A stretch of DNA of 64,000 nucleotides from Hydrogenophaga taeniospiralis (GTDB lineage: Bacteria; Pseudomonadota; Gammaproteobacteria; Burkholderiales; Burkholderiaceae_C), in contig NZ_JAHBAG010000001.1 of assembly GCF_020510445.1 (NCBI RefSeq), positions 844,501 to 908,500 on the forward strand, given 5' to 3'. Positions 22,881 to 29,063 of this stretch are shown here, in pieces. A model generated the notes under the pieces. It saw nothing but the letters and a program-made list of their open reading frames with translations, had not been told where the DNA came from and did no database searches. The position numbers and the translations under genes are program-made. Within the stretch, counting starts at the first letter, position 1, and every line of letters begins with the position of its first letter.

Positions 22881-24326
22881 CTATTCCTTGGACGCGTGGG
22901 ATCGCAGGCAGTTTTGCCCGGCGGCGGTCAAACGGTACCGCTGAAGGCTGCTCTGAGGTTTGTCGGGTACTGTCATCTCGACGAAGCCCCCCGCCACTGC
23001 GGGCACCAGATAGACCGCCCGGAAGTGCTCTCGGTCTTTCAGCCCCAGTGCCATCTGGACGTCGGCGCGCTTCATCTCGCCTTGCATGACCGCCAGCAGG
23101 CTCAGAACTTCGGGGGTGACTTGCGGGGTGACTTGCGGGGTGACTTGCGGGGTGACTTGCGGGGTGACTTGCGGCGTCGCCACCCGCCACACCACCGCGC
23201 GGAACTGGTTCGCCTCGCGCTCGTCCACCAAATCAATCTTCGGCCAAGCGCCCAGTGCGCGCGGCACCCCCGTGCCCAGCCCCCGGTACGGCAGGATGTG
23301 CGCCGCGTGCTCGGCCAGCACCTTGTTGCGGCGGTTGGAAACACCGGTGCGAATCTGTTCCGGCGTCAGGCTGTCGGGCAAATGGCCGGGGCTGATGATC
23401 TCCACCCGGTCGGTGAACACAAACAGGCGGATCGTGGCGCTCACCAGGAAATCCCGGTGCACCAGCGCGTTCACCAGCAACTCGACGAAAGCCTCTTCCG
23501 GCACCTCCAGCTGCCCCAGCGTGTTGAAGCCCCTGCCGCCCTGCACATGGTGCAGGCTGCGCTTGATGAACGCCATGCCGCGCTGAAACTGCTCTTCCAG
23601 CGTGCCGTCGATGTTTTCGCTGTCCAGGTAGCGCGTATCGCCCAGGTAGGTGCCCGGGAACCACACTGCGCCGATCTGGCACACCTGCAGCAGCCGCTGC
23701 GGCTGCTTGCCAAACAGCAGCAGCCCGGCCAGGTTGGGCACGCCGTCCTGCGCCAGTTGCAGGTTCTCCATCAGTTGCACCACCGGCAGGCCCGCCGCAT
23801 CCAGGCTCTGGCCATAGCGCCGCTCGAAATAGCGGCCAAAGGCCCGCTCGTCAATGTCGGCCGCCGTGGCGTTGTGCACCGGCACCTGATCGGCCTGCAG
23901 CAGCCCGGCGCGCTGAAACATGCGCTGCATTTCCTCGCGCGCCGTCACATGCCGCTTGTCGGCCCCGCTCTTCACCCACACCCGGCCCTGCAAGTCCATG
24001 TAGGGCTTGTTCAGCCCGTCGGGCACATTGACGACCATCACCAGCCCCTGGGCGGTCAACACGTTGTGGCTCACCGGGCTCAGCGGCGGGCGCACATGCT
24101 GGCTGGCGGCGTTGCTCAGCAACTGGTTCAGCCGCCGCACGGCTGCGGCATCCAGCCCGGAAATGGAGCCATCGTCTGCCACACCCAGCAGCAAACACCC
24201 GCCGCCGCTGTTGGCCAGCGCCGCCAGTTCGGCGGCCAGGCTGTCGGCGTTGGTGGCATCGCGCTTGAACTGGTGGCGGCTGTCTTCGCCACGGGTCAGG
24301 ATGCGCATGAGTTCGGCCTCCGTCAT
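22881..24326 (-). CDS. AlbA_2 (Schlafen-like) domain ATP-binding regulator
   Basis: This 481-residue protein has an N-terminal AlbA_2/AAA_4 domain (residues about 10-130; ESRHQFK-like [23 protein letters not shown]), a middle HATPase_c_4-type region with [12 protein letters not shown] near 300, and a C-terminal winged helix. Such proteins often sit inside type I restriction-modification operons and are thought to be regulators. Here only an HsdR remnant follows, starting within a few bases of the stop. Between the ATPase-like region and the winged helix lies a run of five PQVT units encoded by a perfect 12-bp tandem repeat, which probably forms a flexible linker of variable length. Confidence 0.8.
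23116..23175. repeat. 12-bp tandem repeat (five copies) in the AlbA_2 gene
   Basis: The unit GTGACTTGCGGG is repeated five times head to tail (the last copy ends in C). On the coding strand it specifies PQVT per unit. Because the unit is a multiple of three, slippage would change linker length without breaking the frame. Confidence 0.92.
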
Positions 24327-24470: not shown

Positions 24471-24590
24471 TCAATGAACGAGGGTGGAATGTTGCGGGCT
24501 GTTGAGCAGGAGCTCCCGATAGACCGCCAAGGGTGATCGTACGCCCAGCCCTTTGCGAGAGCGGTTGTGATCCGATCTGTTCCCCAACTG
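24471..24590 (-). pseudogene. IS30-family transposase C-terminal remnant
   Basis: The minus-strand frame ends in NRSRKGLGVRSPLAVYRELL, then NSPQHSTLVH and a stop. An N.R.RK.LG...P.....Y/F pattern followed by a short tail is the typical C-terminus of IS30-type transposases. Downstream, 24437-24470 read on the minus strand contains GTGTTGCACTTCAGACTTGA, which resembles an IS30-group terminal repeat. The DDE catalytic core is absent, so this is only the right end of a former element. Confidence 0.55.
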
Positions 24591-25127
24591 CCGCTCTCCC
24601 TCGTTTGGGCCGACGATGACCTTCATGAGTTCGTCGTCTATGCCTCCAGCGAGCACTTCTCCGGCGCGACCAGCGTGTACGTGGCTCCGGGAGATATGTC
24701 CAAACTTGCATCGCGCCTGAAATCCATGCTGCAGCTGCTGCAGGAAGCGGACCCGACCTTTGTGCGCAAAGACATGCACGCTGAGACCGCCATCAACGCC
24801 AAAGGCTTCGAAGTGGACTTTCTGCGTCGCATGCAAGAGGGCGACGACCCCCACCCCTTCAAGCTGTCAGCCGCAGAAGACGAGCTCTGGCCCGTCATGG
24901 CCGAAAGGGCCAAGATCCTGACCGAGGCCCCCTGCTTCCAGCACGTGGTGATCGGTGCCACGGGCAAGATGGCCGTGATGCACACCATCTCGCCAGTCAC
25001 TTTTGTCGAATTCAAGCGCTGGCTGGCGGACCGCCCCAACCGGGAGCCGGCCAAACGCAGGCGGGATGCGCTGCAGGCGCAGACCGTTCAAAGTCTCATG
25101 GACGAGGGCTTGCTGCACGCGCCCTGA
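24567..25127 (+). CDS. Chimeric ORF: small-protein N-terminus fused to nucleotidyltransferase C-terminus
   Basis: A 186-codon open frame from two sources. Residues about 10-52 (WADDDLHEFVVYASSEHFSG, then TSVYVAP and KLASRL) match the first half of the small family whose second half lies at 22549-22644. From about residue 52 the sequence (LLQEADPTFVRKD, NAKGFEVDFLRR, VMHTISPVTFVEFKRWL, RRRDALQAQTV) matches the C-terminal part of GSU2403-type nucleotidyltransferase-fold proteins; the catalytic GS...D head is missing. The GTG start overlaps the IS30-type remnant, so the 5' end was also cut. The switch lies at the 18-bp repeat 24703-24720. It is probably non-functional, although the frame is intact. 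Confidence 0.6.
   Translation: MIRSVPQLPLSLVWADDDLHEFVVYASSEHFSGATSVYVAPGDMSKLASRLKSMLQLLQEADPTFVRKDMHAETAINAKGFEVDFLRRMQEGDDPHPFKLSAAEDELWPVMAERAKILTEAPCFQHVVIGATGKMAVMHTISPVTFVEFKRWLADRPNREPAKRRRDALQAQTVQSLMDEGLLHAP
24703..24720 (+). repeat. 18-bp direct repeat, right copy
   Basis: Identical to 22550-22567. Here it encodes KLASRL within the chimeric ORF, exactly at the transition from one protein family to another. Confidence 0.7.
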
Positions 25128-25492: not shown

Positions 25493-25832
25493 GGGTTGGC
25501 TTGGGGCCGTTGTCTCTTGTCGACCCGAAGCCAGCGTCCGGCTCTGCGTCACATAGCTTTCATTCCGGTTGTATTGGTCGGCAGCCTCAGCTGAGGCGAA
25601 TGTGCATGCTCGAGTAAATTGGCGAGCGGCATATGGGACCGACGGACCATATCGGTCGTGCGCCTGGAGCTTGTTCAGGCTTGTCGGATCTGTTATACCT
25701 ATCCAATTGCCTGACTGCTTGAGCCAACTGGTCGATTTCAATAACCTCTTGGGGGCCACATGCAACGGTGTTTAATGACTGCAGCTGTGGGTATCCGACG
25801 TTTTGTCGGCTTAAATCAAAGATAGCGATCAT
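25493..25832. other. Intergenic transition into low-GC DNA, 340 bp
   Basis: GC content falls markedly within this stretch. No convincing gene is seen. It contains small dyads, for example GACCGA/TCGGTC around 25649-25670 and CCGAC-GTTTT-GTCGG at about 25796-25810, but no clear attC core site and no integrase gene. It presumably carries the promoter for the first cassette-like gene. Confidence 0.5.
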
Positions 25833-27079
25833 ATGAGCGACCCCAACGCCGAACGACTCCATCGTCTTGAGGCAGCAACGGAACGAATTGTTCACTACCC
25901 TCCAGCAGGCAGTTTTGGGGGGCTCATTGACGGAAGTGGGGCGCTACTTGATGGATTCCGTCTTGTATACGCAACAGACAACTTAGAGACAGAATTTAAC
26001 GGTGTATCGCTAGCTGACATTGAGGCGGAGTGCCCCTCGCTGACGCGATTCTTTTCCGGCACAGGTCTATTGTTTCATTCAACAGAGATTTATGAAGAAA
26101 TAGTCCGCTCGGGGAAGACTCAACTTCCCATCGACTACTCGGTCGGTTTTGATACGCAGGTTGCGGAGGCTTTTCGTTTGTATGAGTCTGGCAGAACAAT
26201 TTCTGACTGGGACCGTTTCTGCAACTTGATTCAGTACGTCACTAGACATAACTTCAATTTCGACTATTCTTTCTACATCATCGAAGATCTCGTCAACGCG
26301 GCAGATAAAAAAAATACTCGCCCATTCAATGCAGTTCGCGCACTCAAGCGATTTGATTTCGTTCACTCCGCATCTTTACTCGAAAATCCAAAATACCCAA
26401 TATTTACTGAATCAAGGGAAGAGGCGGGGCGACGAGCCTGCGACACTCTTTCCTCTTTTCTTTCGAGCGAAGAAATAAAACACAGCCTGGCTCGTCGTAA
26501 GGCACTTCTCACCGTGCTAGTAAAGGCGACATGCCTATTTTGGCAATCCCCCACCGAGTTGATCCGCAACTTGTCTACTCTCATCAAATTTTCCCTAGAT
26601 CACTTAGGTAGATTTGCGAAGCTAGAACTATATTTCGCATGGAAGCTTCTCAAGCATGGTGAAGACCTGCGGTTTTTTGCACCGATATGTCAGCCCAGCG
26701 AGGGAGCATTGTCAAAACTGAGCGGCATGAGTTGGGACCTCTACTCGATACGCCACCAAGAAACGATGGCAAGCTGCGCACGGAAGGGTGCGTTTTTGTC
26801 CCTTTCTTTGCAACGCTAGATCGCCGTCTCAAGGAGCTACGAGATGCATGCCCGATTCGATGCCTATTAATCGATGACCAAAATCAACGTTTGAATACGA
26901 TATTCGCTGACGAACTTGAATTCTTCACAGACGTAAATGCAGCCTTGGACATTTCAACGGCGGCTAGACTACGAAATCCATGGGCAAAGATGCAAAGACT
27001 ATCACTGCAGGTTGCAGATGGTGATATTGAGTTGCTGCTTAGTGAGGCGATAAACGAATGTCGAAGCGCAATAGTGTGA
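25833..27079 (+). pseudogene. Low-GC gene of unknown function, apparently frameshifted
   Basis: A 328-codon frame (25833-26819) ends abruptly while a second frame carries on with sensible protein (VPFFATLDRRLKELRDACP onward) to 27079. Adding one T to the T5 run at about 26791-26795 joins them: GAFLSLSLQR-stop becomes GAFFVPFFATLDRR, giving 415 residues with no internal stop. The protein looks soluble, mostly helical, with no motif I recognise. The AT-rich codon use contrasts strongly with the host. The final stop lies 2 bp before attC-like site A, so this is the upstream-most cassette-type gene. Sequencing error, inactivating mutation and programmed slippage are all possible. Confidence 0.65.
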
Positions 27080-27080
27080 T

Positions 27081-27147
27081 CGCCAACCCATCATTCCACC
27101 GGGTCTACGCGAAAAGCTGCGCAGGCCGGTGAATTTAAATGTTAGCT
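27081..27147 (+). other. attC-like recombination site A
   Basis: A 67-bp imperfect hairpin. The left end is CGCCAAC (R''-like) and the right end is GTTAGCT (R'-like). The inner arms are CATTCCACCGG and CCGGTGAAT with one extrahelical base, and the core is GC-rich. The left end begins 2 bp after the stop of the upstream gene and the right end overlaps the start (ATGTTAG) of the next, as expected for integron cassette junctions. The core closely resembles site B. Confidence 0.6.
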
Positions 27148-28035
27148 GCTTTGCAACACATTGAGGATGCTGTGAGTGATAAATCATTATCGGAATATAT
27201 TGATATCCATTTCGCTCTGCACTTTGCGAAGAGGCTCGCTCACATCGATGAGAATGGCAGCCCCCCAAATTGGATCCTGACCGACCCACGGCATATGTAT
27301 GTTCAAATGGCTAGCCACCGGCTTACACTTCTGCGTACGGCTGTCGCTGACGCTAAGGGGCTGATTACACAAGCTGAAAATCCGCCGCCCGATGATTGGC
27401 TCGGTACTGTCGGACTGACTCGCGATAAGTACGTCCAGCAAGTGGTGGATTTATTCACCCTTCTCCTGCACTCTACAGCCGATCGAGCGCTACTGCTAAC
27501 AAATGCGGTTCTATGTCTAGGAATTGATCCACGGAAGCTAAGCATCAAGGAAATATCCAAGAAGCTGCATAATCAAGGCGATATTATTGCCGCTCTTCGC
27601 TCGGTGCACTTCTGCATTTCTCACTTATCTGACCCTAGAAATCAATTCGCGCATAGGGGCGAACGTAGATACGTTGGCCAGTTTTCGGATGTTGCCCGCA
27701 TGAAGGTGATTCTGAAAAAATTTGAATGTCCGTCAGACCAAATTCAGTTGGCGGACTTAGAAGCTTTTCAACGATTGAAAGCGGACATGCTGTCCGAACT
27801 CATCGCTGTGGAGGCAGTGTTGGAGCCGGTGGTTGAAAGTCTATTGCCTAGCTATTTAGCAAAAATCGAATCGCTCGGTGGTCCCGACACCCCGAACGAC
27901 GAAGAAACGGCCCGCGCAAATGCTGCTCTAGCGTACTTCAAAGGCGGAATTCGCCCAGCCTTCATGGATGCAGCCACTCTCTCAATGCACCGGCCTGCGC
28001 GAAAAACCGCGCAGGCCGGTGATTTCAACGGTTAG
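27139..28035 (+). CDS. HEPN-domain protein (cassette gene)
   Basis: A 298-residue, helix-rich cytosolic protein with low-GC codon use. Residues 167-172 are RNQFAH, the R-x4-H motif of HEPN domains, in the context HFCISHLSDPRNQFAHRGER; this region resembles Cthe_2314-type HEPN proteins. HEPN proteins are frequently metal-independent RNases in toxin-antitoxin and defence systems. No obvious antitoxin is encoded beside it, although the membrane coiled-coil gene follows 9 bp later. The ORF runs through attC-like site B and ends at the TAG formed by its GTTAG core, so the last dozen residues are site-encoded. Confidence 0.65.
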   Translation: MLAALQHIEDAVSDKSLSEYIDIHFALHFAKRLAHIDENGSPPNWILTDPRHMYVQMASHRLTLLRTAVADAKGLITQAENPPPDDWLGTVGLTRDKYVQQVVDLFTLLLHSTADRALLLTNAVLCLGIDPRKLSIKEISKKLHNQGDIIAALRSVHFCISHLSDPRNQFAHRGERRYVGQFSDVARMKVILKKFECPSDQIQLADLEAFQRLKADMLSELIAVEAVLEPVVESLLPSYLAKIESLGGPDTPNDEETARANAALAYFKGGIRPAFMDAATLSMHRPARKTAQAGDFNG

Positions 28036-28037
28036 GC
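27973..28037 (+). other. attC-like recombination site B
   Basis: A perfect 14-bp stem CACCGGCCTGCGCG / CGCGCAGGCCGGTG (27988-28001 and 28008-28021) with a 6-nt loop, extended by AAT/ATT with an extrahelical G, and a perfect R' core GTTAGGC at 28031-28037. The left R'' box is degenerate (GCCACTC instead of GCCTAAC). Core and right arm match site A closely, as attC sites within one array often do. Confidence 0.6.
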
Positions 28038-28044
28038 ATCTGAT

Positions 28045-28737
28045 ATGACTTCAATTCGTACACGACTTGGGTCGGTCATCTCGTTGTGCTGGATAGCGGG
28101 CATCGTTTACTTGGCTGTCAGAGACACAGCCGTGCTCGCCAAAATGAGCCCAAATGAATGGGGAGATTTTCTGGCCGGTTCCTTTGCGCCTCTGGCTTTT
28201 CTCTGGCTTGTGCTTGGCTACCTCCAACAAGGAGATGAACTTCGCCTCAGCACAGACGCCCTTCTCCTACAAGCGGAAGAACTCAAGAATTCGGCGCAGC
28301 AACAACGCGAATTGGTCGAGGTGGCGCGACTGCAGGTCGAAAGCGAGCGCGAGGCGCTAGCTTTCGAGAGACGGCTCAGAGAAGACCTCTCAGAGCCCAA
28401 GTTTTCGGTGCTCGGGGGTGGAGGAACATTCCGAGGAGACGGCCAGTCGACCTACAACATCACCATCACCAATACTGGTCATGACGCGACGACCTTCTCT
28501 GCAAGGATCAACTTTCTGGAGGCTGGCTGGCGAGTTATCGCGTCCCTTCCTCTATTCGAAAAAGGACTTAGCCACAAGGCACGTGTAGAGCATCCAACGC
28601 CGCTAGAAGAAGGCAATTCATTTCTTGTCCTTAGTTTTGTCGATGGGCTTGGTCGAGCGGAGGAGAGGACATACCGTGTCAGCCGAGAAAGTGATCATCC
28701 TCATGCAGGCCTCAAGTTCCAGCGCGTTGATTCCTAA
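28045..28737 (+). CDS. Membrane-anchored coiled-coil protein (cassette gene)
   Basis: A 230-residue protein of unknown function. Two hydrophobic segments (about residues 9-28 and 42-60) form an N-terminal hairpin, then a charged coiled coil runs from about 62 to 118 (LQAEELKNSAQQQRELVEVA and on), followed by a beta-rich cytosolic domain (YNITITNTGHDATTF). It starts 8 bp after the GTTAGGC core of site B, and its TAA stop lies inside the left box of site C, a typical cassette layout. The fold could sense or scaffold at the inner face of the membrane, but this is speculation. Confidence 0.65.
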   Translation: MTSIRTRLGSVISLCWIAGIVYLAVRDTAVLAKMSPNEWGDFLAGSFAPLAFLWLVLGYLQQGDELRLSTDALLLQAEELKNSAQQQRELVEVARLQVESEREALAFERRLREDLSEPKFSVLGGGGTFRGDGQSTYNITITNTGHDATTFSARINFLEAGWRVIASLPLFEKGLSHKARVEHPTPLEEGNSFLVLSFVDGLGRAEERTYRVSRESDHPHAGLKFQRVDS

Positions 28738-28789
28738 CCTCTGTGCAACCGGACCCGCTACGGCAGGTCGGTTAGCCCGAACGTTGAAC
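28732..28789 (+). other. attC-like recombination site C
   Basis: A 58-bp site with the full attC layout: R'' TCCTAAC (containing the upstream stop codon), L'' GCAACCGGACC, a short loop, L' GGTCGGTTAGC, and R' GTTGAAC (fits GTTRRRY). The L arms pair except for one extrahelical G (AACCGGACC against GGTCGGTT), the feature that orients attC recombination. It is different in sequence from sites A and B. Confidence 0.65.
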
Positions 28790-28942
28790 GACTGCTTTTC
28801 TCTTTGAGCACTGGCCGCTCCTGGTCGCCCTCGTTCACTCCTCCTCGGATAAACCCTCCATTGACACCACCCCGCGCTCCCCCGAAGGTGCAAGGCCCGC
28901 CCGCCAGCCTGTCACCCGGAGCCGCGCCATACCCTCTACCCC

Positions 28943-29063
28943 GCACCAGCACATCGCCACCGTGATGCAGGTGGCCTCCGACGGCGCGGGGGTGCGGGCG
29001 GCGGCGGGGCATGAGCAGGTGATTCGCGATTCGTGGCACCGCAGTACCGGCTGGACCGTCACC
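28943..29063 (+). pseudogene. N-terminal fragment of a sigma-54-dependent (AcoR-type) regulator
   Basis: The plus-strand frame HIATVMQVASDG, then EQVIRDSWHRS, resembles the start of AcoR/Fis-family regulators, which begin with a helix and an ...I..SW.R motif. The frame dissolves after about 40 codons into the antisense of the EamA gene. No GAF, AAA+ or Fis domain remains. It lies just right of attC-like site C and may mark where host sequence resumes. The rest of 28790-28942 shows no recognisable feature. Confidence 0.4.

Follow-up and report, generated by a model that had tools for sequence, protein, structure and literature searches.

Three gene cassettes stand in tandem on the plus strand of the window (the whole 64-kb stretch of DNA analysed here), in a region whose GC content is 0.47, 0.50 and 0.58 in 1-kb steps across 26001-29000, against about 0.69 around it. 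Cassette 1 (25822-27141) carries gene 1, a single 415-aa gene with a frameshift, whose two frames (25833-26819 and 26687-27079) match residues 1-322 and 318-415 of one intact homologue. Cassette 2 (27142-28031) carries gene 2, here gene B (27139-28035, with homologues starting at 27172), and cassette 3 (28032-28783) carries gene 3, here gene C (28045-28737; 230 aa). The cassettes close on sites A (27081-27147; 67 bp), B (27973-28037; 65 bp) and C (28732-28789; 58 bp), likewise on the plus strand. Much of an initial annotation of this DNA was borne out on re-reading: the coordinates, lengths and strand of the sites; the low GC of the gene region; stop codons just before A (27077-27079), inside the GTTAG of B (28033-28035) and inside the TCCTAAC of C (28735-28737); the end boxes GTTAGGC of B (28031-28037) and GTTGAAC of C (28783-28789); and a core sequence common to A and B, which are 80% identical over 55 bp. 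Its count of three genes holds for plus-strand cassette genes, with the amendment that the two overlapping frames read at gene 1 belong to a single broken gene.

As Rfam at gathering scores gave no match for the window sites, an attC covariance model was built from 21 sites in loci around intI of other genomes, none of them from the window genome; its alignment comprised 25 attC minus four (L129:5541 and L135:12691, misaligned; L140:2999 and L141:3354, omitted for compactness). Across the whole 64-kb window and up to E = 10, three matches only were returned, exact to the base: site A (41.1 bits, E 1.2e-7 in the window), site C (21.0 bits, E 0.0083) and site B (19.7 bits, E 0.017). The initial annotation had proposed IntegronFinder or the attC covariance model as a check; the model used here, trained on other genomes, matches all three sites and confirms the observation. 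As a control, 183 kb of DNA from relatives, in 53 loci surrounding EamA and hemH, contained no match at E <= 1. When the search is extended to all 5.28 Mb of the genome, site A stays significant (E 1e-5), and sites C (E 0.68) and B (E 1.4) do not. A first motif scan for attC had missed 3 of 3 window sites, whose boxes deviate or whose stems score too low.

Folding supports the claim of a single extrahelical base for A and C, each with one unpaired stem base, and contradicts it for B, an unbroken hairpin with no extrahelical base; two similar sites in relatives keep the unpaired base. With the left box of B also degenerate, the earlier caution that some sites may be inactive is judged right. 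Site C, by eye, resembles the 129-bp attC of L129 minus its middle. Site A is 84% identical to an attC at 2877 kb of the same genome and 83% identical to one at 926 kb. A genome-wide search yielded at least 19 plus-strand attC matches in seven clusters (651-659, 871-873, 926, 2382-2385, 2437-2439, 2877 and 3986 kb), a lower bound since 150 of 2881 candidates were scored; among these candidates a single doubtful minus-strand match was seen (E 3.5). The plausible matches listed (19 of 19) all lie on the contig plus strand.

For gene 1, 78 relatives were found, of which 34 entered the family alignment. The product of gene B is probably a HEPN RNase-type protein, a prediction drawn from its match to the Cthe_2314-like HEPN family (E 4e-4, below the family cut-off) and from an R-x4-H motif that all 15 aligned proteins keep unchanged (of 17 homologues, 15 were aligned). 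Gene B had no relative in 398 other genomes sampled from the order, in viral contigs or in plasmids; gene C occurred in 2 of the 398 genomes and has 867 distant relatives in the protein collection, with no detectable attC near the two distant homologues. Plasmids held four distant relatives of P0019, a homologue of gene 1, and one partial match for gene C, and in PADLOC none of genes 1-3 matched a family at E <= 0.1. In gene B and its homologues P0004 and P0007 the reading frame continues into attC-like sequence (AAQAGDF, AAQSGDF), which hints that the gene forms a cassette in other places as well. Among nine sister-array genes tested, four carry a DpnII-type nuclease, an AbiU2-like HEPN, a DUF4062 or a TIR domain, the TIR gene being a candidate cassette; all four types are presumably associated with genetic conflict. 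Adjoining the array, a Schlafen AlbA_2 / Fic-like C-terminal protein is encoded at 22881-24326 (minus strand), and the nucleotidyltransferase (PF12281) at 24567-25127 lacks about 50 N-terminal residues that match in the 312-aa frame of relatives.

To the left of cassette 1 lies an attI-like site (25676-25827, plus strand), 65% identical to the attI at position 3986k of contig C1, on which the window spans 844501-908500, and below the 1e-6 limit of the survey of the genus described later. Its expected crossover falls between 25821 (G) and 25822, where the core reads GATAGCG. The stretch common to the window and to the relative G061 before the first gene ends CTTAAATCAAAG/ATAGCG in the former and TTTAAATCAAAG/TTAGCC in the latter, and the same attI stretch sits immediately upstream of complete intI in L136 and L139. 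Mean column conservation in the 22 of 23 copies that could be anchored is 0.85 across the last 30 bp on the left of the crossover, falls to 0.74 within the 6-bp core and drops to 0.40 past it. Its homology to attI that adjoin intI, in a family whose sequence diverges at G/TT, places the site among attI, the window core itself being GATAGCG. Overlapping it on the minus strand, 25665-25754 matches the first IntI residues (YNRSDKP; tblastn 43% over 30 residues, E 5e-4); these residues alone are left of the intI that stands beside the attI of a complete integron. Beyond the first codons the sequence is not intI, the place of whose body is taken by a leader (25520-25675). Similar leaders lie left of attI at C1:925k and C1:2380k and in G049, G052, G045 and G035, that at 2380k being 74% identical to 25521-25581 (E 1e-6).

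After the last attC comes a constant array terminus of 44 bp (28784-28827, plus strand), which overlaps the right box of site C and reads TTGAACGACTGCTTT...CTCCTGGTCG. By coordinates it abuts an attC match at 11 places: the window, L120, L128, L200 (6685), L201 (2189), L202, L204 (1234), L206, L208, L212 and L213. Full intI is present in two arrays that end in this terminus, L128 and L127; some copies have no detected attC alongside, for example L205 and that at 1806 in L200. A 13-copy profile of the terminus found 20 matches over 906 kb: its 13 inputs, two more that repeat inputs where loci overlap, and five that were additional (L049, L135, L201, L204 and L206). Shuffled sequence of four loci gave none. 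The window ends score 9.4 for inverted repeats, against 7.3 for shuffled ends (sd 1.3, max 12.7), and 7 left compared with 13 right ends average 6.48, against a permuted 4.26 (sd 0.52); no target-site duplication was seen by eye in the platform ends compared. With three attC and no intI nearby, the window array fits the working definition of a CALIN (two attC or more without a neighbouring intI), the label given by the initial annotation (a cluster of attC sites lacking an integrase). The label is too narrow: an attI with the first intI codons stands at the left end and an array-ending sequence at the right.

Chromosomal sequence shared with relatives resumes at 28840-29045 (plus strand), a flank that 18 of the genus's 67 genomes possess. 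The stretch 28840-29058 is the start of a gene that in G061 forms a 663-aa frame resembling, by eye, a sigma-54 activator, and about 6 kb before EamA are missing from the window in a deletion that it has in common with G035. Comparison of relatives for presence or absence of the cassettes, as had been suggested, showed that G061 has different contents next to this right flank, and G059 different contents between both flanks of the array. At the G061 locus the attI is followed by two other cassettes, the terminus known from the window and, past an IS30-like insertion (by eye), the same right flank; the left flank differs from that of the window. The G059 locus carries the left ORF of the window, an attI remnant, a TIR-domain gene and the right flank, with no detectable attC. 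Ten loci of relatives gave no DNA match to 25497-28839.

Searched against the genus, the attI at C1:3986k has 37 matches, counting its own, spread over 22 of the 67 genomes. A survey of the flanks covered 36 attI sites, that is, 35 of these 37 (two G047 matches being left out) together with the window. Full intI adjoins 3 of the 36: one in G057 and two on G016 contigs, which are perhaps the same sequence. A left flank of 1 kb or more is available for 35 copies; of these, 32 have no full intI alongside and 19 keep 40 intI residues or fewer. The window genome holds four clear copies of attI (the window, 925k, 2380k and 3986k) and two weak ones (2877k, E 0.001; 2436k, E 0.02). Two G005 arrays have in common an identical 1.5-kb segment, which was considered as a shared cassette and rejected: it is an insertion inside attC with short inverted ends (TGGACTCCCCC/GGGGGAGTCCA). 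It is found at L200 2599-4149 and in L205 and L206 (G005), with 100% identity at two G005 places and 86% in the window genome, and is reminiscent of the attC-targeting IS1111 group.

A second locus bears on how such sites are filled. About 25 bp past the hemH stop codon, this attI module occurs in G000, which is the window genome, and in G025, G027 and G054, and the short stretch from hemH to attI looks homologous in all four species; intI was for this reason most likely already absent in the common source of the four copies. Among these species, full intI was found in the genome of G027 only, and partial intI in that of G025. From attI to the next shared sequence the contents measure about 1.5, 2.3, 0.8 and 1.9 kb in G000, G025, G027 and G054 respectively, and only G025 and G027 share a part of them. 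G027 joins attI straight to TTGAACAGCGA, where G025 carries an extra segment ending CG/TTGAACAGCGA; the absence of this segment from G027 falls precisely on the attI crossover. Between G054 and G027 the flanks are 92-95% identical, with no shared DNA match in the contents. The covariance model found attC in G000 and, for G025, in the shared part only; the extra G025 segment gave no match, and neither did G054 or G027. These differences in content suggest cassette exchange in trans, which would be the simplest reading of the sequences. Relatives that are nearer by hemH (G035, G015, G061 and G052) have no attI site there, so loss or transfer took part. In the hemH survey 30 loci were read, and the others were judged by comparing coordinates only.

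The initial annotation found no integrase in the window, and indeed no integron-integrase match lies there. The family TIGR02249 has seven matches in the genome, all outside the window and none reaching the family cut-off. The highest-scoring one, with 87 bits where the cut-off is 265, is a C-terminal fragment (C1:650014-650166) that lies beside another array, some 220 kb from that of the window, and is 88-92% identical over 52-53 residues to the IntI of four relatives. At this place (L048 10007-10293, C1:650.0-650.3 kb) two C-terminal integrase fragments lie side by side in opposite directions, adjoining a cassette array, and the second is perhaps, by eye, part of an IS91-type element. Judged from its sequence, the window array is in decay, with a frameshift in gene 1, an altered attI core, no extrahelical base in site B, and intI surviving as fragments only, elsewhere in the genome.

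Taken together, the preferred reading, to which we give a probability of roughly 0.85, is that the window holds a chromosomal integron platform, made up of attI, three attC cassettes and a constant terminus, which would have lost its integrase and would now be decaying. An IntI would have inserted the cassettes at G/TT cores; in this attI family at least some insertions would have taken place in trans, after intI had gone from beside attI; and the window array would by now be frozen, since the genome has no complete intI and the cores are altered. Several observations were counted against the platform: the insignificant genome-wide scores of sites B and C, the weakness of the window attI, the different left flank in G061, the undetected attC in G059, and the same result near the two distant homologues of gene C.

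The strongest competitor, to which we would give somewhat less than an even chance, is that a complete integron stood here until recently, that a local deletion removed intI, and that all cassettes were acquired in cis, with no exchange in trans needed at this locus. Loss of intI is well known (PMC12444791, PMC3607928, in the sections consulted), and attI copies elsewhere keep from none to 188 intI residues, as independent deletions would leave. Such deletions sit less easily with an identical leader type in place of intI at non-orthologous places, and the hemH attI, which is not that of the window, seems to have exchanged its contents with no intI alongside. The recurrence of leaders at non-orthologous places suggests that platforms were copied as units. 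A tentative extension of the platform reading, for which the odds are distinctly below even, makes these units of Hydrogenophaga chromosomes dispersed and non-autonomous, each with attI, cassettes and terminus, all loaded and unloaded in trans by one integrase encoded elsewhere, with the window holding a dying copy; against the trans step, an intI match at E <= 1e-60 is absent from 14 of the 22 genomes with this attI, some of them drafts.

It is improbable that the array is a plain CALIN, for which an integrase from another locus would have inserted cassettes off-target into a secondary site of the chromosome, with the attI-like stretch there by chance or unrelated. Such insertion is one proposed origin of CALINs, as the consulted part of PMC8618304 has it, and among the four clear attI copies of its own genome that of the window is the weakest; that stretch nevertheless can be aligned for some 150 bp to attI that adjoin intI, has the first IntI residues and the leader common to two other platforms, sits where attI must sit, and recurs in G061 before other cassettes. 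That the sites are inverted repeats arisen by chance beside unrelated genes of low GC, a thought encouraged by the imperfect boxes at all three sites and the low genome-wide scores of B and C, is refuted by the specificity of the model, which matches only these sites and nothing in controls, by near-identical attC elsewhere in the genome, and by the presence of attI and terminus.

CALINs, the loss of intI and mobilisation in trans are already in print (PMC12444791, PMC8618304 and PMC3607928, each as far as the sections consulted go). Dispersed attI platforms without an integrase look new, no description having been found in the literature searched, a body that excludes subscription papers and preprints. 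Integron surveys count intI genes and attC clusters, and IntegronFinder, the standard program, does not detect attI outside class 1, according to the available text of PMC9024848. If CALINs often keep an attI that a remote integrase can serve, they may be functional places of docking and not mere debris, and the way in which the capture capacity of a genome is counted would change. The hemH locus, with four species, one attI junction and different contents, makes the question testable.

Among known systems, an integron mobilization unit, or MITE-flanked integron, would move an integron that has no transposase of its own; here the inverted ends appear weak, and no target duplication was seen by eye in the ends compared. 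In the delta-attI-type cassettes of mobile integrons, parts of attI lie away from intI (PMC12901181, in the portion consulted), and the partial attI closes the right side of a cassette, whereas the window attI is a docking site at the left end. The integron remnant of Treponema phagedenis likewise retains attC sites and cassettes after the loss of intI and, unlike the present family, is described in the consulted part of PMC3607928 as one static remnant. In Xanthomonas, chromosomal integrons downstream of ilvD have intI broken or deleted (PMC12444791, sections consulted), and resemble the window in being a vertical platform with an inactivated intI; they occupy one locus, whereas several attI platforms per genome are found here. 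CALINs, which according to the same sections of PMC12444791 are mobilisable in trans and recur at conserved places in Xanthomonas, share with the window attC-bounded cassettes and no nearby intI, and differ in that the window array keeps an attI, the first intI codons and a constant terminus, with copies of this attI recurring through the genus.
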